Shown here piece after piece: positions 10,638-62,330 of a DNA stretch of 64,000 nucleotides. Numbering within the stretch: the stretch's first letter is position 1; each line of letters opens with the position of its first letter. The DNA is from Nitrospira sp. (GTDB lineage: Bacteria > Nitrospirota > Nitrospiria > Nitrospirales > Nitrospiraceae). The notes beneath the pieces are model-generated. The model did no database searches. It had not been told where the DNA came from and worked only from the letters and a program-made list of their open reading frames with translations. Location: positions 4,144,900 to 4,208,899 of the forward strand of contig CP092081.1 of the NCBI GenBank assembly GCA_022226935.1, written 5' to 3'. Position numbers and translations under genes: made by a program.

Positions 10638-10818
10638 ACGCGCAACAACTCCCTGCCCGTCCCGAATGCCCTCGCAGGATTTTTTCACCTGACAGATAAA
10701 TTTTACTGCAGTCTGAACGGCTCCGTCCGTCTTTACCTATGGGCACTCCCGGGAGAGGGGGCGGCCAGAGCCTGCCTCCGTGCATATCCTTGGACATTGA
10801 ATGAGCAGAGGGGGAATC

Positions 10819-47948: not shown

Positions 47949-48114
47949 GGTCCACCGTCCGCTCATCCGGCTTCTTGCTCCCTTGCGCCGCCGCGCAGAC
48001 TCATGCCGACTCCATTATTTTTTTCTTTCTTCGAAAACGGTGGTGAGGATCTTCCGGGATGGTGTGTCGTAGGAGGTGAGGAAGACACATACTTTCCGCG
48101 AAGGAGGACCATCT

Positions 48115-50583
48115 GTGGCTTATCGATCACTGCCTTTCCTACGACCCCTGCTGGTCGGAATGGGAATCATCGTGTATACGGCGTTGTCAGGGACCATGCT
48201 CTGGTCGTCGCCGGCCGCTGCGCAAGAGCACGATTTCAATATTCCCGCGCAGCCGTTGAGCCAAGCTTTGATCGAATTCGCGACGCAGGCCGGGGTGTCG
48301 GTGAATGCCGACTCGGAATTGCTCACCGGCCGGCAGAATCAGGCGGTCATCGGGCACTATGCCGACGATACGGCGTTGGAGCAATTGCTGAACGGCACCG
48401 GCCTGCAGTCGAGCCAGGTCGGTGTCAACACCTTCACGATTCTGCCGGCGCCCGCGCCGGCCGGTCCTCACAGCCTGGATCCGGCGTCGTCCGGCGCTGC
48501 GGCGGCCGCCATGGCACAGGACCATCCAAAACCGCCGAAACCGGTCACAGTGCCGGAAGTCGTCGTGAAAGATGTCAAAGAGCGCGACGACGACACGCAA
48601 TCGTATGTGGCAGAGGAGGCCAGCACGGCGACCAGGACGGAGACGCCGCTGATCCAAGTGCCGCAATCGGTCGGCGTGGTGACCAGAAAAGTCATGGACG
48701 ATCAAAAGGCCATCCGTGTCGATCAGGCCTTGAGAAACGTGAGCGGGATCGCGTTTTCGGATACGGGCCAGTCCGGGAACGCCGGCGACATCCTTTTTTG
48801 CCGCGGCTTTCCGTGCGACTATTTCAAAAACTACATGCGCAACGGATCAGGGCAGGCGCAGACCTTTCGCGATATCGCCAACATTCAGCGCATCGAGGTG
48901 CTCAAAGGTCCGGCCTCGGTGCTCTATGGACGGAGCGAGCCGGGCGGCATCGTCAATTTGACGACCAAGCAGCCGCTCCCGGATCGGTTTGCGTCCCTGG
49001 AACAGATCATCGGCAGCTATGGACTCTCCCGCACCATGGTGGACGTGACCGGCCCTCTCGATGCGAACAAGACCGTGCTGTTTCGCATCAACGGCGCCTA
49101 CGAAAATGCGGGCAGCTTCCGAGATTTCGTCAACAGCCAGCGGTACTTCGTGGCGCCGGTCGTGACGTGGAATGCGAGCAACAAGACGACGCTGATCGTC
49201 GACGGAGAATATGTGCATGATCACCGCACCCCGGACCTCGGGTTCCCGGCGTTGGGACGAGGACTCGCGCCACTTCCTATCAGCCGGTTTCTCGGTGAGC
49301 CGTTCGACACGCTCAAAACCGAGGAATGGCGAGGCGGCGCGGCGTTGATCCATCAGTTCAACAAAGATTGGCGGATCGAAAGCCGGTTTCGATTCGACAA
49401 GAGTGCCACGTCCGCGTCGCGCACGTATGCCGCCGGCTTGTTTCCGGACAACCGTACATTGGGACGGTTCTACATCGAGCAACTGGCCGAGGTTTCCAGT
49501 TTTTATTGGCGCAACGACGTGATCGGCACGGTGCACACGGGAAGCATCCGGCATGCCCTGTTGGCCGGAGTGGAAGTGGGGCGGCAGTCGACGGACTACA
49601 CCACGGGGCTGGTCCCCTTCAGCTCCATCGATATTTTCAATCCGATCTATGGGCAATCCGGGATGCCGCAAATCGCGCGATCGCCCACCATCGAAAGCTT
49701 TGCCAATTCCGCCGGCGCGTATGTGCAGGATCAAATCTCGATTCTGGATAATCTGCATGTGCTGGTCGGCGCGCGGGGCGACTATTTTTATCAGCACAGC
49801 ACGAGCGGGACTGCCCGCGTCGATACGAAGGCGGAAAATGTCGGCTTCAGCCCGCGCATCGGCGTTACCTATCAGCCCATCAATTCGGTGTCGGTCTATG
49901 CGAACGTCACCCGTTCCTTCATCCCGACCTTCGGCCCCTTCGCGGCGGCATCCAATCTCACCGTGCCGTCGACCGGCACCCAATACGAAGCCGGCGTCAA
50001 GACCGATATCGTGCCGGGACGATTGACGTCGACGGTCGCAGTCTACCGGTTGGTCCGGCGGAATATTTTGACGCAAGATCCGAATGCCCCGTTGGGTATT
50101 TCCGTGCAGACCGGCGAGCAGCGAAGCCACGGGATAGAAATCGATCTGGCGGCGCAATTGACGCCGGCGTGGAAAGTCATCGCGACCTATTCCTATATCG
50201 ATGCGCGGATCAGCGCCGACAATACCTTTGCGGTCGGCAACCGGTTGCCGTTGATTGCCCGCCATACCGGAAGCCTGTGGACGACCTACGACATTCTCGA
50301 AGGCCCGTTGCAGGGACTCGGGGCGGGCATCGGCATGTTCGCCGTGGGAGAGCGGGCGGGCGATTTGGGCAACACCTACGAAATGCCGGGCTATGTCAGG
50401 ATGGACGCCGCCCTGTATTATCGAAAGCAGGACATTTTCCCGCGCATGAACCTGGTCACCCAGCTGAACGTGCAGAATCTCTTGGATAAGGACTATTTCT
50501 ACGGAGGGCCGGGAATCCGCGCCTACAATTACCTCGGGGCTCCGCTCAGTTTCCTGGGTTCGGTCAAGTTGGAATTTTATTAA
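48115..50583 (+). CDS. TonB-dependent siderophore receptor with STN domain and CRGFPC plug motif, cassette 7
   Basis: An 822-residue receptor starting with GTG at 48115, set by AAGGAGG eight bases upstream. An earlier GTG at 48076 is rejected because it overlaps its own ribosome site. The signal peptide ends near SPAAAQ. STN: HDFNIPAQPLSQALIEFATQAG. TonB-box-like VPEVVVKDVKERDDD. The plug has ILFCRGFPCDYFKNYMR with Cys229 and Cys234 around RGF, and VLKGPASVLYGRSEPGGIVN. The barrel ends VKLEFY. It is a near-duplicate of receptor 6; the N-terminal STN domain is less similar, suggesting it answers to its own FecR. Confidence 0.9.
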   Translation: MAYRSLPFLRPLLVGMGIIVYTALSGTMLWSSPAAAQEHDFNIPAQPLSQALIEFATQAGVSVNADSELLTGRQNQAVIGHYADDTALEQLLNGTGLQSSQVGVNTFTILPAPAPAGPHSLDPASSGAAAAAMAQDHPKPPKPVTVPEVVVKDVKERDDDTQSYVAEEASTATRTETPLIQVPQSVGVVTRKVMDDQKAIRVDQALRNVSGIAFSDTGQSGNAGDILFCRGFPCDYFKNYMRNGSGQAQTFRDIANIQRIEVLKGPASVLYGRSEPGGIVNLTTKQPLPDRFASLEQIIGSYGLSRTMVDVTGPLDANKTVLFRINGAYENAGSFRDFVNSQRYFVAPVVTWNASNKTTLIVDGEYVHDHRTPDLGFPALGRGLAPLPISRFLGEPFDTLKTEEWRGGAALIHQFNKDWRIESRFRFDKSATSASRTYAAGLFPDNRTLGRFYIEQLAEVSSFYWRNDVIGTVHTGSIRHALLAGVEVGRQSTDYTTGLVPFSSIDIFNPIYGQSGMPQIARSPTIESFANSAGAYVQDQISILDNLHVLVGARGDYFYQHSTSGTARVDTKAENVGFSPRIGVTYQPINSVSVYANVTRSFIPTFGPFAAASNLTVPSTGTQYEAGVKTDIVPGRLTSTVAVYRLVRRNILTQDPNAPLGISVQTGEQRSHGIEIDLAAQLTPAWKVIATYSYIDARISADNTFAVGNRLPLIARHTGSLWTTYDILEGPLQGLGAGIGMFAVGERAGDLGNTYEMPGYVRMDAALYYRKQDIFPRMNLVTQLNVQNLLDKDYFYGGPGIRAYNYLGAPLSFLGSVKLEFY

Positions 50584-50587
50584 CGTC

Positions 50588-51748
50588 ATGCTCAACGCCG
50601 ATGCGCTCAAACGTTGGTACGCGGTGCACAAGTGGACCAGTTTGGTCTGCACCCTCTTTTTGCTGATGCTCTGCCTGACCGGCCTGCCCTTGATCTTTCG
50701 TGATGAACTGACCTTCTGGCTGGGAGACGCGATCGAACCGCCTGAACAGGTAACCGCGTCGGCGCCCGTCGACCTGAATGCGCTCGTGCAGGATGCGAAG
50801 GCCCGGCGCCCTCAGGACGCGGTGAAGTTTCTCACGAAAGACGACGAGTATCCGATGTGGTTCGTGTCGTTGGGCGAAACCCCCATGGCGCAAGACAATT
50901 CCGCGCTCTATATGTACGATACGCGGACCGGCGAGTTCCTCAAGGAGTTTCCGATCGGCCATGGGCTGGTCTATGTGTTACTGACGCTGCACGTCGAAAT
51001 GTTCGCCGGCCTGCCGGGGACGCTGTTTCTCGGATTCATGGGACTGGTGTTCGTGGCATCCGTCGTCTCAGGAATCGTCGTCTACGGGCCGTTTATGCGG
51101 AAACTGCCGTTCGGAACCGTGCGCCGGGAACGCAGCACCCGCTTGGCCTGGCTCGATCTCCACAATCTCCTGGGCATTGTGACGGTGACGTGGGTGCTGG
51201 TCGTCGGCGTGACGGGTGTCATCAACACCTTGGATCGGCCCCTGCTGGGCTACTGGCAGATGACCGAAATCGTCGACATGCTGACGCCGTGGCAAGGAAA
51301 GCCGGCTCCGGCGACCGTGATACCGGTGGATCGCGCCATCCAGGCCGCGGAAGCCTCGGCGCCGGAGTTGGCCGTTCGATTCGTCGCTTTTCCCGGAACC
51401 CCCTTCGCCGGGGCGCACCATTACATGGTGTTCATGCGCGGCCATACCCCGTTGACTGCCCGATTGTTGACGCCCATCCTGATCGATGCCGAGACGGCGC
51501 ACGTCAGTGACAGCCGGAAGCTGCCATGGTATCTCACGGCTCTGCTGCTCTCGCAGCCGCTCCATTTCGGGAACTATGGCGAGATGCCCTTGAAACTAAT
51601 CTGGAGCCTGCTCGATCTCATCACCATCGTCGTGCTGGGCAGCGGAGTCTATCTCTGGTGGGCAAAGCGCACCTTATCCGTGGATCAGATCCTGTCGGAA
51701 CACGACGTGCCGGTTGGTATGGTTCCGCCCTCTGCGACCAGCCGGTGA
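50588..51748 (+). CDS. PepSY-domain transmembrane protein, putative ferrisiderophore reductase (copy 4)
   Basis: A 386-residue protein very similar to copy 3: YAVHKWTSLVCTLF, LTLHVEMFAGLPG, LDLHNLLGIVTV and QPLHFGNYGE with the four histidines, and the shared YGPFMRKLPFGTVRRE. The shared block between helices 2 and 3 makes the duplication with copy 3 and the 36250 pseudogene evident. It starts four bases after the receptor 7 stop, in the same transcript. No methyltransferase follows. Confidence 0.85.
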   Translation: MLNADALKRWYAVHKWTSLVCTLFLLMLCLTGLPLIFRDELTFWLGDAIEPPEQVTASAPVDLNALVQDAKARRPQDAVKFLTKDDEYPMWFVSLGETPMAQDNSALYMYDTRTGEFLKEFPIGHGLVYVLLTLHVEMFAGLPGTLFLGFMGLVFVASVVSGIVVYGPFMRKLPFGTVRRERSTRLAWLDLHNLLGIVTVTWVLVVGVTGVINTLDRPLLGYWQMTEIVDMLTPWQGKPAPATVIPVDRAIQAAEASAPELAVRFVAFPGTPFAGAHHYMVFMRGHTPLTARLLTPILIDAETAHVSDSRKLPWYLTALLLSQPLHFGNYGEMPLKLIWSLLDLITIVVLGSGVYLWWAKRTLSVDQILSEHDVPVGMVPPSATSR

Positions 51749-57260: not shown

Positions 57261-57567
57261 GGCGCATCCTCATCGAATGTATGTGAACAGCACGGCGCGC
57301 GAAGGAGAACCCAGTGTATGAAGGGACTGAAAAACGGTCAATTGAACGATACAAATCCGCAGCCACTTCACGATCGGACATCACGAGCAGCCATCCTCTT
57401 TACGAACTGCCTGTTCCCATCGGCCAGATCTAGGGAAAACCGGCACTTGCCCTTTCCCAGCCCTCTTTGCCGTAACGATCTCGTACCTCGACGTGTGGAA
57501 CTGCCCGCCTGATACGTCTCTTACTTTAAGAGCCCTTCACGACTCACTCCACCAAGGCAGGCATCCG
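57261..57567. other. Divergent intergenic stretch, no gene seen
   Basis: Space between the divergently read S9 peptidase and CbiX-like genes; should contain both promoters. No clear boxes. Confidence 0.4.
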
Positions 57568-59280
57568 ATGACCAGAACCGGCAGCGCATCGAACATGTTC
57601 CGACGAGAGGTGCTGTTCTTCCTCGTGGCCATCCTGTGTTGGTCCTTCGCCTCAGCAGAGACGGCCCAGGCCAAGACGGGATTTCTGATCGTCGCACCAG
57701 ATCGAGGGGCGTTGGGGAATCAGGACATCAGAGCCCTGTTCGCCGAATTTTCAGCCAGCTATTCGCCGGCCTCGTTGGTATTCGTCGGGCGTGACTACCG
57801 GGGAGTCGGAAGCGAATACTCCCAATATGTCAATCGCGCCCTGCTCGAGCTCCGTCAAGCCGGCGCGATGAGCGTGGCGGCCATCCCACTATTTGTGTCC
57901 TCTGCCGATCCGATCCTTCAGCGAGTCAAGGCCTCCCTCCCCGGGTATGGGCATGTAGAGCGAATCGATTGGGCCCCGGCGATGTCCGAGAGCTATCTGA
58001 TCGGCCAGGTGATGGTGGATCGCGCCGCCGACTTGAGCCGAGATCCGGACCATGAACAAGTCATCATCGTGGGGTTCGGCGCCACGGACGCGGCCAACGA
58101 GCAGGCCATGCAGGCCGATTTGAAAAAACTGTCCGACTACCTCGTGCGCTACCGGCGTTTTCATGAATCGCGCACCCTGGTCTATTACGATCAGGTGTCG
58201 CCGATGGCCGAAGCCAAGAATGCCTCGGCCGACGCGATCATGACACAGACGGCGGCGAAGAAAGGCCACGCCCTCGTGCTCTTCGCCACGCTCGGACCCA
58301 AGTTCGACCACACGATGGCCTTGACCTCTTCCTTCCGGAACAGGTTCCAGGAGATGGACGTGTCGTTCGCCCAGGATGAACTCGTGCCGCATCCGAATGT
58401 GCTCCGATGGATGAAGAAGACGGCCAATGCGTACCTTCCTGCGACAGCCAAGGAAATCGGAATCGTCATCATGCCGCACGGCGCCAATCAGGTCTGGAAT
58501 GATGCCGTCGAACGACTGGTAGCGCCGCTCACATCCACCCATCAGATCGAGATGGCATTCGGCATGGGCGATCCCGCGGTCATTCAATGTGCGGTGGAAC
58601 GGTTGGAGAGCAGGAACGTCAGGCGGATCGTGCTCGTGCGTCTGTATGCGCTCGCGCGCCATCTCAAGGATCGTACGGATTATGTGCTGGGCCTTTCGAA
58701 CGCCCCGCCGTCGAGCGGGCATGGCGGCCATGACGGCGGCAGAACACCTCCCCAGCAGATACGCAGCGCAGCATTGTTCGCCTCATTCGGCGGGTATGAG
58801 GAATCACCTGAGGTTGCCCGCATCCTCCACGAACGCATCGTGCAACTGAGCCGCGAGCCGGAGCAGGAGACGGTGCTGCTGATTGCGCACGGCGACAGAA
58901 CGGATGAAGGCAATGCCGTTTGGCTCTCGGTCATGCAGGCGCACATCGAACGGCTGAGACAGGATCCTCATTGCGCCCAGCTCAAGGCGATTCGAGCCGC
59001 GACCGTGCGGGAGGATTGGCCGGAGCAGCGTGAGAAGGCGGTCAAGGAAATCCGAACCATGATTGAAGAAGCCTCACATAAGGGCCGGGCGCTGCTGGTG
59101 GCCGACCGGCTGTACGGAGCCGGCCCCTACAGACAACTCTTCGAAGGGCTCGACTATACCTTGAACGATCAGGGGCTTGCCCACCCCGCGCTGACCGAAT
59201 GGCTTCGGACGGGCATCGAGCGAGCGGTCGCAGCCATGGCGCAACCGGCCCCGGAAGGTGACGGCATGACGACCCGGTAA
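57568..59280 (+). CDS. Exported CbiX-like (sirohydrochlorin chelatase fold) protein
   Basis: A 570-residue protein with a signal peptide (LFFLVAILCWSFASAETAQA). The rest is built of chelatase-type units: KTGFLIVAPDRGALGNQDIRALFAEF near residue 40, GIVIMPHGANQVWNDAVERLVAPL near 290, and ETVLLIAHGDRTDEGNAVWLS near 445. CbiX enzymes use a His in the motif GHGS to insert cobalt into sirohydrochlorin. The first unit here has no His (PDRG) while the second (PHGA) and third (AHGD) keep it. Being exported, it is unlikely to be a normal cytoplasmic cobalamin enzyme; metal or tetrapyrrole handling in the periplasm is an inference. ATG at 57568 or 57595. Confidence 0.78.
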   Translation: MTRTGSASNMFRREVLFFLVAILCWSFASAETAQAKTGFLIVAPDRGALGNQDIRALFAEFSASYSPASLVFVGRDYRGVGSEYSQYVNRALLELRQAGAMSVAAIPLFVSSADPILQRVKASLPGYGHVERIDWAPAMSESYLIGQVMVDRAADLSRDPDHEQVIIVGFGATDAANEQAMQADLKKLSDYLVRYRRFHESRTLVYYDQVSPMAEAKNASADAIMTQTAAKKGHALVLFATLGPKFDHTMALTSSFRNRFQEMDVSFAQDELVPHPNVLRWMKKTANAYLPATAKEIGIVIMPHGANQVWNDAVERLVAPLTSTHQIEMAFGMGDPAVIQCAVERLESRNVRRIVLVRLYALARHLKDRTDYVLGLSNAPPSSGHGGHDGGRTPPQQIRSAALFASFGGYEESPEVARILHERIVQLSREPEQETVLLIAHGDRTDEGNAVWLSVMQAHIERLRQDPHCAQLKAIRAATVREDWPEQREKAVKEIRTMIEEASHKGRALLVADRLYGAGPYRQLFEGLDYTLNDQGLAHPALTEWLRTGIERAVAAMAQPAPEGDGMTTR

Positions 59281-59316: not shown

Positions 59317-59481
59317 ATGAATTGTCTGAAATGCGGCGGATACATGATCATTGAGCGCGTGCTGGATTTTTATGCCAAAGACTCCAAATGGCGTTGCATC
59401 AACTGCGGGGCGACCAAGGACACCCTCGCGTCGCTTATGAAGGCTCGCAACACCTCGACCGCATCGAGCCCGACTGGCTGA
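59317..59481 (+). CDS. Small zinc-ribbon protein (54 residues)
   Basis: Starts MNCLKCGGYMIIERVLDFYAK and has a second pair WRCINCGATKDTL; four cysteines in two CxxC pairs form a zinc ribbon. ACGAAAGGAATGG provides the ribosome site. It resembles the core of the 89-residue protein at 51855 (CGG, an acidic residue after the second strand, RCxxCG). It lies 36 bases after the CbiX-like gene and may be co-transcribed. Function unknown. Confidence 0.7.
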   Translation: MNCLKCGGYMIIERVLDFYAKDSKWRCINCGATKDTLASLMKARNTSTASSPTG

Positions 59482-60023: not shown

Positions 60024-60449
60024 GTGGACAGCCTTAAGCACATCGTGGATTACGGGATTATCGGGCTCCTGCTGGCCCTGAGCCTCTGGGCGCTGGCAGT
60101 GGCCGCAGAGCGCTGGATCTTCTATCGGCGCATCGACCTCAGGCGATACCGCTCCCAAGAGGAATTCGAAGTGGTCCTGACGAAACGGTTGGTTGTGATC
60201 GGAACGGTGGCTGCAAATGCCCCCTACATCGGCTTGTTGGGAACAGTGCTTGGCATCATGTTGACGTTCCACACCATGGGCTCATCGGGCACCATGGCGG
60301 TTCAGACCATCATGGTCGGCTTGAGCCTCGCGCTCAAGGCCACCGCGGTTGGTCTGTTGGTAGCCATCCCATGTGTCGTGCTGAACAACGTCCTCCGGCG
60401 GCGGGTCACCGAATTGATCACCCAGTTCAAGATTCAACATGGGACGTGA
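60024..60449 (+). CDS. exbB: ExbB/TolQ-family proton channel
   Basis: A short 141-residue ExbB with the GTG start at 60024 after AAAGGATTACC. Helix 1 is YGIIGLLLALSLWALAVAAERW, then APYIGLLGTVLGIMLTFHTMG with the loop of the MotA/TolQ/ExbB domain, and LALKATAVGLLVAIPCVVLNNVL. With ExbD it forms the proton channel that powers TonB. It lacks the long N-terminal extension of some homologues. The last 11 bases overlap exbD. Confidence 0.9.
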   Translation: MDSLKHIVDYGIIGLLLALSLWALAVAAERWIFYRRIDLRRYRSQEEFEVVLTKRLVVIGTVAANAPYIGLLGTVLGIMLTFHTMGSSGTMAVQTIMVGLSLALKATAVGLLVAIPCVVLNNVLRRRVTELITQFKIQHGT

Positions 60450-60813
60450 TATCGACCAGATCAATGTGATTCCTCTGGTCGACGTCATGCTCGTTCTGTT
60501 GGTCATTGTCTTGACCACGGCCACGTTCATCACGACGGGGCAAGTGCCCGTTCAGCTGGCGAAGGCGCAGGCGGCCTCAGATCGAAAGGATGTGCCGCTC
60601 GTCGTGACTCTGACGGCGGAGGGGACGCTCTTCATGAACGATCAACCGGTTCCCCCGGACGGATTGCGGGGCATACTCAATCCCCACTCGCGCGAATCGT
60701 CTGTCCTGGTGCGCGCCGATCGAGTGACGGTCCTCGACCGATTCGTGTCCGTCGTCGATGAGATCCGCGGCTTAGGCTTCCAGCAGGTCAATCTTGAGGT
60801 GGTTCGCTCATGA
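60439..60813 (+). CDS. exbD: ExbD/TolR-family protein
   Basis: A 124-residue ExbD. DQINVIPLVDVMLVLLVIVLTTATF is the single membrane helix with the conserved Asp (PLVDVMLVLL) needed for proton use; the rest is periplasmic (LVVTLTAEGTLFMNDQPV). It overlaps exbB at its start and tonB at its end, so the three genes are translationally coupled. Confidence 0.92.
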   Translation: MGRDIDQINVIPLVDVMLVLLVIVLTTATFITTGQVPVQLAKAQAASDRKDVPLVVTLTAEGTLFMNDQPVPPDGLRGILNPHSRESSVLVRADRVTVLDRFVSVVDEIRGLGFQQVNLEVVRS

Positions 60814-61832
60814 GTCTGGCTCTGCCATTGGACACATCGCAGCGCCAGCGAGCCTCTCTCTGCTGGGCCTTTTCCATGTCGATCCACGGTCTTTTCATCG
60901 GCATGGCCGTCATGTTGCTCACGGAAATACCGCCGCCGCCCACGCCTGCCTTCAAGTGGGACGTGGCGGTCGTTCAACCAGCACCCCCTGCGGCAGAACC
61001 CGCTCCACCGCCGCCCGTAGAGTCGCAGCCGCAGCCCACGCCTCAACCGGTTACACCGCCCAAACCCAAGCAGGTTCCGGTAGCCAAGGCCGAGCCCGTC
61101 GTCCGCCAAGTGCAGAGGGTAGAGCGGCAGCCGGTCCAGCAGGTTCAGCCCGTTCAGGAAACAGTGCCGGTGCAGACGGCCCAGGCCATTCAGCAAGTCA
61201 CGACACAACAAACAGAAGCCGTAACGCGTGACGTCCAGGAGGCGGTCACGCCCGTCGCTGAAGTCGTCCAGCAGGACGTCGTCGAGCAAAGCACGCCGGC
61301 CCTGGAGGAAGTGTCGCCGTTCCAGCCGGTCACGACCGCCGAGCCTCTCACCCGTCAGGCGGAGGCTGTCGCCGCAGTCGCGGCGGTGGTGAATGAGGCT
61401 CCAGCGGTGGAATCGGTCCCCGCGCCGATTGAGGCGATTGAACAGGTCCGGCAGGAAGTGATTCAGCGACCGGTACAAACCGTCCAGCAACGCGTCGTCA
61501 AGCATCGGGCGGTCCAAGCCCGACCGGAAGCCCAGGCGGATTTCGGATGGCTCGGCCAAGAGATCTGGTCTTCAGTCGATCAACGCAAGCGCTACCCCGC
61601 CGAAGCCAAACGAAACCATTGGGAAGGCCGGGTCATCCTTCGCCTCACGATCGAACAACATGGCGCGGCAGTCCATTTATTGGCGTTGTCCCTGGAAAAA
61701 AGCTCCGGGCACTCGGTGCTGGATCGCCACACGCTTGAAATGGTCCGCAACGCCTTTCCCCTGAAGGTCAAACACCAAATGGCGCGATCAAAGATTCAAC
61801 TGGATGTGCCTTTTTCCTACCACATGGAATAA
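60810..61832 (+). CDS. tonB: TonB energy-transducing protein (second copy)
   Basis: A 340-residue TonB. Helix AFSMSIHGLFIGMAVMLLTEI with the S-x3-H signature; then a very long spacer (about residues 45-250) that is first Pro/Lys-rich and then strongly Val/Gln/Glu-rich (VQRVERQPVQQVQPVQETV). The C-terminal domain reads RYPAEAKRNHWEGRVILRLTIEQHG and SLEKSSGHSVLDRHTLEMV. Part of the exbB-exbD-tonB operon. Probably the main energy supply for the array's receptors. Confidence 0.92.
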   Translation: MSLALPLDTSQRQRASLCWAFSMSIHGLFIGMAVMLLTEIPPPPTPAFKWDVAVVQPAPPAAEPAPPPPVESQPQPTPQPVTPPKPKQVPVAKAEPVVRQVQRVERQPVQQVQPVQETVPVQTAQAIQQVTTQQTEAVTRDVQEAVTPVAEVVQQDVVEQSTPALEEVSPFQPVTTAEPLTRQAEAVAAVAAVVNEAPAVESVPAPIEAIEQVRQEVIQRPVQTVQQRVVKHRAVQARPEAQADFGWLGQEIWSSVDQRKRYPAEAKRNHWEGRVILRLTIEQHGAAVHLLALSLEKSSGHSVLDRHTLEMVRNAFPLKVKHQMARSKIQLDVPFSYHME

Positions 61833-61871
61833 TGACCCTTTCAACCGATAAACCGAATAATGGAGATTCCT

Positions 61872-62330
61872 ATGTCATTACGTCATGCCTTTGTCCATTC
61901 TGTGTTCCTGGTGACAGCCGCTTCCATCGCCGCAATGCTCTCCATGTCGGCAGAGCCGACCTTAGCGCAACACAATGGCGACAAGCCGTTCCACGCTCTC
62001 GTGACCGATGCCAAGGACATGCAAACCGACTTAAAAAACGTCGTGTTTTATTGGGAAGAAAAAGTCAGTGAGACATCGTTCATCCCGCATGAATTGAAGC
62101 ACCTCCCCGTGAAGCGAGGCACCGCCACGGTGAACATCAAGTTCGACGGGGTCAAGCAGATTGAAGTCACGGCGGCGGGGGAAAAGACCCCACCGACTCT
62201 GCATATCACGCTGACCAGCGGCAAGACGGGAGATTTTCCCTTGGCGATCGATGGAAGCTTTAAAGGCGATTCGGACTTCGGCCAAGTCGACCTCCCCGTG
62301 CATGGCTTGAAAAAACTTGAGTTTAAGTAG
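61872..62330 (+). CDS. Exported protein of unknown function in the exb-tonB operon
   Basis: A 152-residue protein. The signal peptide ends near PTLAQ. The mature part is rich in alternating hydrophobic residues (TVNIKFDGVKQIEVTAAGEK, LHITLTSGKTGDFPLAIDG), suggestive of a beta sandwich. ATG at 61872 with GGAG upstream; 61860 would also be in frame. It lies 40 bases after tonB and is probably co-transcribed. I do not recognise a family. Confidence 0.68.
   Translation: MSLRHAFVHSVFLVTAASIAAMLSMSAEPTLAQHNGDKPFHALVTDAKDMQTDLKNVVFYWEEKVSETSFIPHELKHLPVKRGTATVNIKFDGVKQIEVTAAGEKTPPTLHITLTSGKTGDFPLAIDGSFKGDSDFGQVDLPVHGLKKLEFK

Follow-up and report, generated by a model that had tools for sequence, protein, structure and literature searches.

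A predicted exported protein of two fused chelatase-like modules in Nitrospira and its possible role in iron uptake

SirB and CbiX-long, which are class II chelatases, are cytoplasmic proteins. The locus described here raises the question of what a chelatase-like protein with several units and a signal-like N-terminus would do in the periplasm of Nitrospira. Its gene lies at 57568-59280 on the plus strand of the window, the whole stretch of 64,000 nucleotides that was analysed, in a genome of one contig (4.23 Mb), and encodes 570 amino acids from an ATG at 57568. The frame could start earlier, at a GTG at 57493 that opens a longer ORF, and the ATG was preferred as it fits the signal peptide. 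The gene is real, the window protein sharing 41-61% identity with 25 further full-length homologues. Its parts are the following.

57568..59280, plus strand: tandem four-unit class II chelatase-like protein, predicted to be exported, 570 amino acids.
57568..57672, plus strand: signal peptide region, residues 1-35, with a helix at 7-27 in the model and cleavage probably after A-x-A, at a putative exact site.
57673..58047, plus strand: unit 1, residues 36-160, related to unit 3; Arg46 (codon 57703-57705) replaces the HG histidine.
58048..58446, plus strand: unit 2, residues 161-293, related to unit 4, without an HG histidine.
58447..58857, plus strand: unit 3, residues 294-430, with invariant His304 (codon 58477-58479), His or Gln at 365, Lys367, and a loop with His385 and His388 that has low confidence in the model.
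58858..59262, plus strand: unit 4, residues 431-565, with invariant His441 (codon 58888-58890), Arg514 and Tyr521.

To describe the family we assembled a neighbourhood set of 28 loci (27 non-duplicate loci and the window), from which the duplicate loci L012, L015, L016 and L017 had been dropped beforehand and the fragment-bearing L018 and L019 left out. Without L040 and L044, which are incomplete or frameshifted, these gave 26 full-length sequences, the window protein and 25 homologues. The N-terminal helix had been read as a signal peptide, and this reading held. Using our own hydropathy and A-x-A criterion rather than SignalP, we found that all 26 sequences have a hydrophobic segment ahead of the first strand, together with a site that is A-x-A-like by a loose definition. 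The 12-residue hydropathy maximum reached 2.0 or more in 22 of the 26 sequences versus none of 49 control N-termini from cytoplasmic-type neighbour families, the two ranges touching (homologue minimum 1.63, control maximum 1.68). None of the 26 sequences matched the lipobox pattern used. Export by the Sec route to the periplasm is well supported by these sequence features. Nor did the homologues prove to be ordinary cobaltochelatases, as all 25 have four units and signal-like N-termini, and an ordinary CbiX-family gene and the ferrochelatase HemH are encoded elsewhere in the genome.

The AlphaFold model of the whole protein (pLDDT 82, pTM 0.82, from a 7-row alignment) consists of four successive repeats with identical strand-helix order. 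The original prediction of at least three recognisable units was right as to a multi-unit protein, and the count is corrected to four. In profile comparisons, unit 1 matched unit 3 (probability 94%, E 1.1e-7) and unit 2 matched unit 4 (95%, E 2.5e-8), while the remaining four unit pairs stayed below 1% each and served as an internal negative control. The N-half (residues 36-293) likewise matched the C-half (98.6%, E 7.5e-16), all E-values of these profile comparisons being from single pairs on shallow alignments. Because units 1 and 3, units 2 and 4 and the two halves match and the other pairs do not, we read the protein as a two-lobe chelatase duplicated in tandem. As modelled, it was shown by computation to be two fused bilobal class II (ATP-independent) chelatase modules.

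Comparison of the models with solved structures pointed to the same superfamily. With the full model, Foldseek returned Bacillus subtilis SirB as the top PDB match (E 3.2e-5), and a second structural alignment again placed SirB first (Z 20.6), with ferrochelatases at up to 19.3, the periplasmic Desulfovibrio vulgaris CbiK-P (PDB 2xvx/2xvz) at 18.1 and Porphyromonas gingivalis FetB (PDB 9b86), which we take to be the same protein as IhtB, at 17.2. CbiK-P carries haem at its tetramer interface. In the full-model alignment CbiK-P and most bacterial ferrochelatases cover residues ~33-293, and the SirB and human ferrochelatase rows cross both halves (to ~560-564), so that the lobe pairing differs between rows. 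Modelled alone (pLDDT 89.6), the C-half gave near-full-length matches to SirB (Z 17.5), CbiX (15.8), CbiK-P (15.4) and FetB (14.9), and its first Foldseek match was Deinococcus radiodurans DR2241 (PDB 2jh3, E 1.7e-5), a multi-domain protein whose structure is chelatase-like by its title. According to the models, the bilobal alpha/beta chelatase fold of the class II superfamily is present in the N-half and the C-half. Searches of the PDB by sequence gave nothing meaningful with the single sequence (beta-lactamases, E 0.05), one unrelated chain with the C-half profile (E 0.34), and with the full profile weak matches to SirB (E 0.0093) and CfbA (E 0.083), with PorV between them as noise. Since direct sequence matches to solved structures are weak, the fold comparison and the half-against-half profiles carry the argument.

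The name CbiX, under which the protein had been predicted, is only loosely right. No Pfam model reached its cut-off on the protein, PF01903 (CbiX) did not match it, and the sole PF01903 match in the genome is a different gene. CbiX-short and CbiX-long have one or two lobes and no signal peptide; here we found four lobes and a signal-like N-terminus throughout the 26 sequences. SirB and CbiX-long resemble the window protein in having two lobes per module, and they differ as enzymes of siroheme or cobalamin synthesis with the His pair in one lobe (accessible text of PMC7689651). IhtB/FetB shares the class II fold and a genetic link to TonB-dependent haem or iron receptors; FetB, however, is a chain of one bilobal module (261 residues), and IhtB is described as a lipoprotein in the part of PMC10913741 consulted, unlike the window family. 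CbiK-P is likewise a periplasmic class II chelatase, but has a single bilobal module with a cobalt-binding histidine, as given in the available portion of PMC4063343, whereas the window protein has two modules and does not conserve the second ligand. The protein is thus one that works like IhtB/FetB and CbiK-P and belongs neither to CbiX (PF01903) nor, lacking a lipobox and having two modules, to IhtB. Among the open-licence papers searched, we recognised no description of an exported four-unit chelatase.

A closer relative of the N-half was found within the genus. Eight Nitrospira loci, e.g. L022:16039-16977, encode a two-unit CbiX-like protein in the same clusters as the four-unit gene. Its N-terminus is signal-like by eye, it aligns with CfbA (E 8.4e-11) and its profile matches the N-half of the four-unit protein (98.3%, E 2.4e-14); unlike that half, it retains the CbiX histidine pair, both residues lying in lobe 1 (His42 and His112, invariant in 8/8). 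By this relationship the degenerate N-half probably descends from a two-unit enzyme of this type. The two-unit gene adjoins a following gene of one sequence cluster, of which the one member scanned was PepSY_TM-like. In the window's own genome a search, run without a positive control, did not find the two-unit protein.

Sequence conservation bears on where an active site would lie. Class II chelatases and their His pairs are treated in PMC7689651 and PMC4063343 (in the sections available). The HG histidine is kept in all 26 sequences in unit 3 (His304) and unit 4 (His441). The first unit had been predicted to lack the catalytic His, which is so, Arg46 occupying the position in 26/26; that statement was an undercount, as unit 2 also lacks the HG histidine and residue 170 in its place varies. 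The one invariant histidine kept in the N-half, His275, lies away from the HG position. The C-half has 53 invariant columns versus 29 in the N-half, and they include Arg514, Tyr521, Glu411, Tyr410 and Asp335. The candidate for a second metal ligand, position 365, is His in 14/26 and Gln in 12/26, and Lys367, kept in 25/26, is placed opposite the second histidine of CfbA by one weak PDB alignment. Because the HG histidines and more of the invariant columns fall there, the site probably lies in the C-half, yet differs from the textbook chelatase site.

This pattern also bears on two other readings of the protein. It might be a non-catalytic periplasmic carrier of haem or porphyrin (a soluble haemophore), in which the fold is kept as a cleft and His304 and His441 serve as axial ligands. 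The variable second ligand and the single invariant HG histidine in each lobe of the C-module speak for such a carrier, and the receptor context described below would suit it equally; the excess of invariant columns in the C-half is more than a simple cleft would seem to need, which is suggestive only. On balance we regard a carrier as possible, if somewhat unlikely. Biosynthetic metal insertion into periplasmic tetrapyrroles, by an exported enzyme of cobalto-, nickelo- or ferrochelatase type, could draw on the fold, as in SirB, CbiK and CbiX, and on a sequence resemblance, weak in both cases, to CfbA (E 0.0029) and CbiK (E 0.021). It is very improbable, given that the second catalytic histidine is not conserved, that HemH and CbiX-family genes exist separately in the genome, and that no tetrapyrrole-synthesis family occurred in the part of the neighbours that was scanned.

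The surroundings of the gene pointed to iron uptake. A TonB-dependent receptor of one sequence cluster is present in 23 of the 28 loci, the nearest being on the same strand in all 23 and within 500 bases of the chelatase gene in nine of the 28. Of the five others, L021, L025 and L034 are short contigs (L021 with receptor fragments downstream of the chelatase), and L037 and L039 have none in the stretch examined. The receptor family was classified in 20 loci, the window included and L014, L032 and L043 outside this set, and in 16 of them the top family of the nearest receptor was haem/haemoglobin (TIGR01785 or TIGR01786). Six exceeded the curated haem cut-off (L028, L029, L030, L035, L036, L038), six scored 227-295 bits (L022, L023, L031, L033, L040, L041), and four had no more than 146-155 bits, scores that ordinary receptors also reach (L024, L026, L027, L042). 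TIGR01785 exceeded 225 bits in 12 of the 19 receptors tested outside the window. As a control, up to 15 candidates in each of 61 whole genomes yielded three receptors above 204 bits, two of which adjoin the chelatase (G054, G059) and the third of which lies in G060, where no chelatase was found. Furthermore, hemP lies just upstream of the chelatase in two Gammaproteobacterial loci, L035 and L036 (PF10636, E 6.5e-18 and 2.5e-17), which have the order hemP, chelatase, haem receptor.

The window itself differs in receptor type from most of these loci. Its genes relevant here are the following.

48076..50583, plus strand: TonB-dependent siderophore receptor, FoxA/FhuA-like (TIGR01783, 373.5 bits, over cut-off), the nearest receptor, 6.9 kb upstream.
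50588..51748, plus strand: PepSY_TM inner-membrane protein (PF03929, E 9.3e-55), a candidate periplasmic iron reductase.
59317..59481, plus strand: zinc-ribbon-like ORF with CxxC...CxxC, 54 amino acids, 36 bases downstream of the chelatase, no family over cut-off.
60024..60449, plus strand: ExbB (TIGR02805 over cut-off; PF01618).
60439..60813, plus strand: probable ExbD, 124 amino acids, overlapping exbB, assigned by position and sequence-cluster membership.
60810..61832, plus strand: TonB (PF03544; TIGR01352).

Zinc-ribbon-like ORFs resembling that of the window also follow the chelatase gene in L013 and L014. The stretch 9648-51748 of the window holds at least seven TonB-dependent receptors (at 10801, 15734, 22246, 27050, 31633, 41664 and 48076), of which three are preceded by the FecR genes scanned (9648, 14636, 21140) and two followed by PepSY_TM genes (44238, 50588); it is a large iron-uptake island. 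Since the nearest receptor is 6.9 kb away and inside this array, its adjacency in the window is weak evidence. The remaining non-haem cases among the 20 are L020, siderophore-type (FoxA/FhuA-like) as in the window, L013, siderophore/FecA-like, and L044, with nothing at 1e-40. Window, L020, L013 and L014 form one clade in the tree (support 95/93), and its three classified nearest receptors are all siderophore-type. Elsewhere, the two contexts occur together in L038, where the chelatase stands between a haem receptor and a siderophore-type receptor that has a PepSY-cluster gene after it.

Receptors of this type raise a further reading, in which the protein of the window clade is a helper of siderophore or free-metal uptake that accepts Fe2+ (or Co2+, Ni2+, Zn2+) freed by a PepSY reductase and delivers it to an importer in the inner membrane, no tetrapyrrole being involved. 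The window and L020 lie near siderophore receptors, PepSY_TM genes occur near the chelatase in the window and in L014, the loop with His385 and His388 offers further histidines, and a ZIP-like transporter adjoins the gene in L014 (E 7.9e-7) and is one gene off in L037 (E 3.2e-4), both below the Pfam cut-off. Because the closest folds are tetrapyrrole enzymes and the wider family adjoins haem-type receptors, with hemP in two loci, we consider such a helper improbable. TonB and ExbB (window), PepSY_TM (also L022 and L045) and ferritin-like proteins (L034, L045) each accompany the chelatase in part of the loci, and one Manganitrophus plasmid carries, beyond the chelatase and three intervening ORFs, a receptor gene and then genes for a PepSY and a ferritin-like protein.

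The original prediction that the protein may capture metal or tetrapyrroles in the periplasm went in the right direction, and the haem-type TonB receptors and hemP in relatives add new support. Tentatively, and at somewhat under an even chance, we favour a role in iron uptake, in which the protein would handle tetrapyrroles in the periplasm and probably holds haem or strips it of its metal. The ligand, haem or a metallo-tetrapyrrole related to it, would enter via a TonB-dependent receptor and be passed to the chelatase-like protein, to sit in the C-terminal module's cleft with His304 and His441 on either side; reverse chelation, for which a PepSY reductase might provide help, could then free the iron, or the tetrapyrrole might be handed onward. 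The PepSY protein would provide the ferrous state, and the N-terminal module may be a structural or binding partner. In other bacteria, FoxB and further PepSY proteins carry out the periplasmic reduction of siderophore iron (as given in the accessible part of PMC13001220). Haem oxygenase (PF01126) was matched in 0/61 genomes and in 3/14 control genomes, so that another haem-iron route would be needed if haem is used.

Several findings count against this tetrapyrrole-handling role, the main weakness being the siderophore-like receptors in the window's own clade. In addition, the second metal ligand typical of the class is not conserved and catalysis is predicted only; in G060 a receptor exceeds the haem cut-off although no chelatase was found, and the gene is patchy; four of the 16 haem-type receptors score in the ordinary range; with the pattern used, Fur-box-like sites near the gene did not exceed chance expectation; and in the model-based alignment SirB and human ferrochelatase cross both halves. 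Promoter and terminator scans near the gene were likewise at or below chance level. The narrower reading, that of an unnamed double-chelatase family which, with no need of haem oxygenase, frees the iron of imported haem in the periplasm and leaves the porphyrin ring intact, is rather doubtful; it would comprise a catalytic C-module and a degenerate N-module, partly plasmid-borne, in nitrite- and manganese-oxidising Nitrospirota and some Proteobacteria. Ring-sparing release of haem iron is an open matter in Porphyromonas and Bacteroides, where IhtB and the CobN-like HmuS/BtuS are candidates (PMC6460266, PMC13227078 and PMC10913741, in the parts available). IhtB, part of a system that includes a TonB-dependent receptor, is presumed to remove the iron of haem (sections consulted of PMC10913741 and PMC6460266), and is called a putative ferrochelatase or reverse ferrochelatase in the accessible text of PMC13227078. 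A conserved exported double chelatase near haem receptors of free-living bacteria is a soluble candidate that can be purified and directly assayed, and a haem-related role, if true, suggests that some Nitrospira would scavenge haem iron from neighbours.

The family is distributed patchily. The protein or a piece of it was found in nine of the 61 genomes, the window's own included. In a survey of Nitrospirota that scored up to three candidates per genome, 24 of 395 genomes had a match at E 1e-100 or better; in seven further genomes the weak match consisted of short pieces, some with stops, or of the two-unit relative only. Among public genomes, 25 loci added Gammaproteobacteria, Acidiferrobacterales and Nitrospinaceae, and the named relatives are mostly Nitrospira and kin. 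Three Candidatus Manganitrophus plasmids bear the gene, with broken frames in one. Broken or remnant copies, one of them on a Manganitrophus plasmid, were seen in L044 and in G014, G038, G197, G328 and G376, which suggests repeated loss. Because presence is patchy and remnants exist, the gene is dispensable. Moreover, the copy in G026, of the same genus as the window, belongs to another clade (L027), which suits transfer or an old duplication followed by loss.

Further genes were noted beside the chelatase. In L020, the window's closest relative, a PPOX-type FMN flavoprotein (TIGR04025, L020:8526-9626) lies between the PepSY gene and the chelatase; it belongs to another NCBIfam subfamily than a HugZ/HutZ-type haem degrader, a candidate that was therefore rejected, and it has no match in the window's genome. 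FeoB was set aside as well, the PF02421 matches in the genome resembling general GTPases. Small ORFs considered as HemP-like (c16, c20, c52) gained no support from Pfam with one member each scanned, and c52 matches DUF6686. A small ORF lies directly 3' of the chelatase in L032 (2386-2607) and L033 (11808-12038, DUF6686-like), and different small ORFs take that position in other loci. Upstream of the chelatase, L022 (3583-6660) and similar Nitrospira loci carry a MacB/LolD-like ABC set of one ATPase and two permeases, all below family cut-offs. In the window, 61860-62330 encodes a protein of 156 amino acids whose N-terminus looks like a signal by eye and to which Pfam gave no match; its sequence cluster also adjoins ExbB/ExbD- or TonB-cluster genes in L013, L014 and L028-L030.

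Finally, a cobalamin riboswitch (88.5 bits) was located at 1-153 on the minus strand of the window. It had been suspected to be a coincidence, and so it proved: it is ~57 kb from the chelatase and its transcript points outward and leaves the window, and for these reasons it gives no support to a B12 link, which we rejected, no connection being seen. The DNA beyond the window edge (L046), in which some stretches are masked, holds on the minus strand a TonB receptor and a frame resembling, by eye, a non-ribosomal peptide synthetase.
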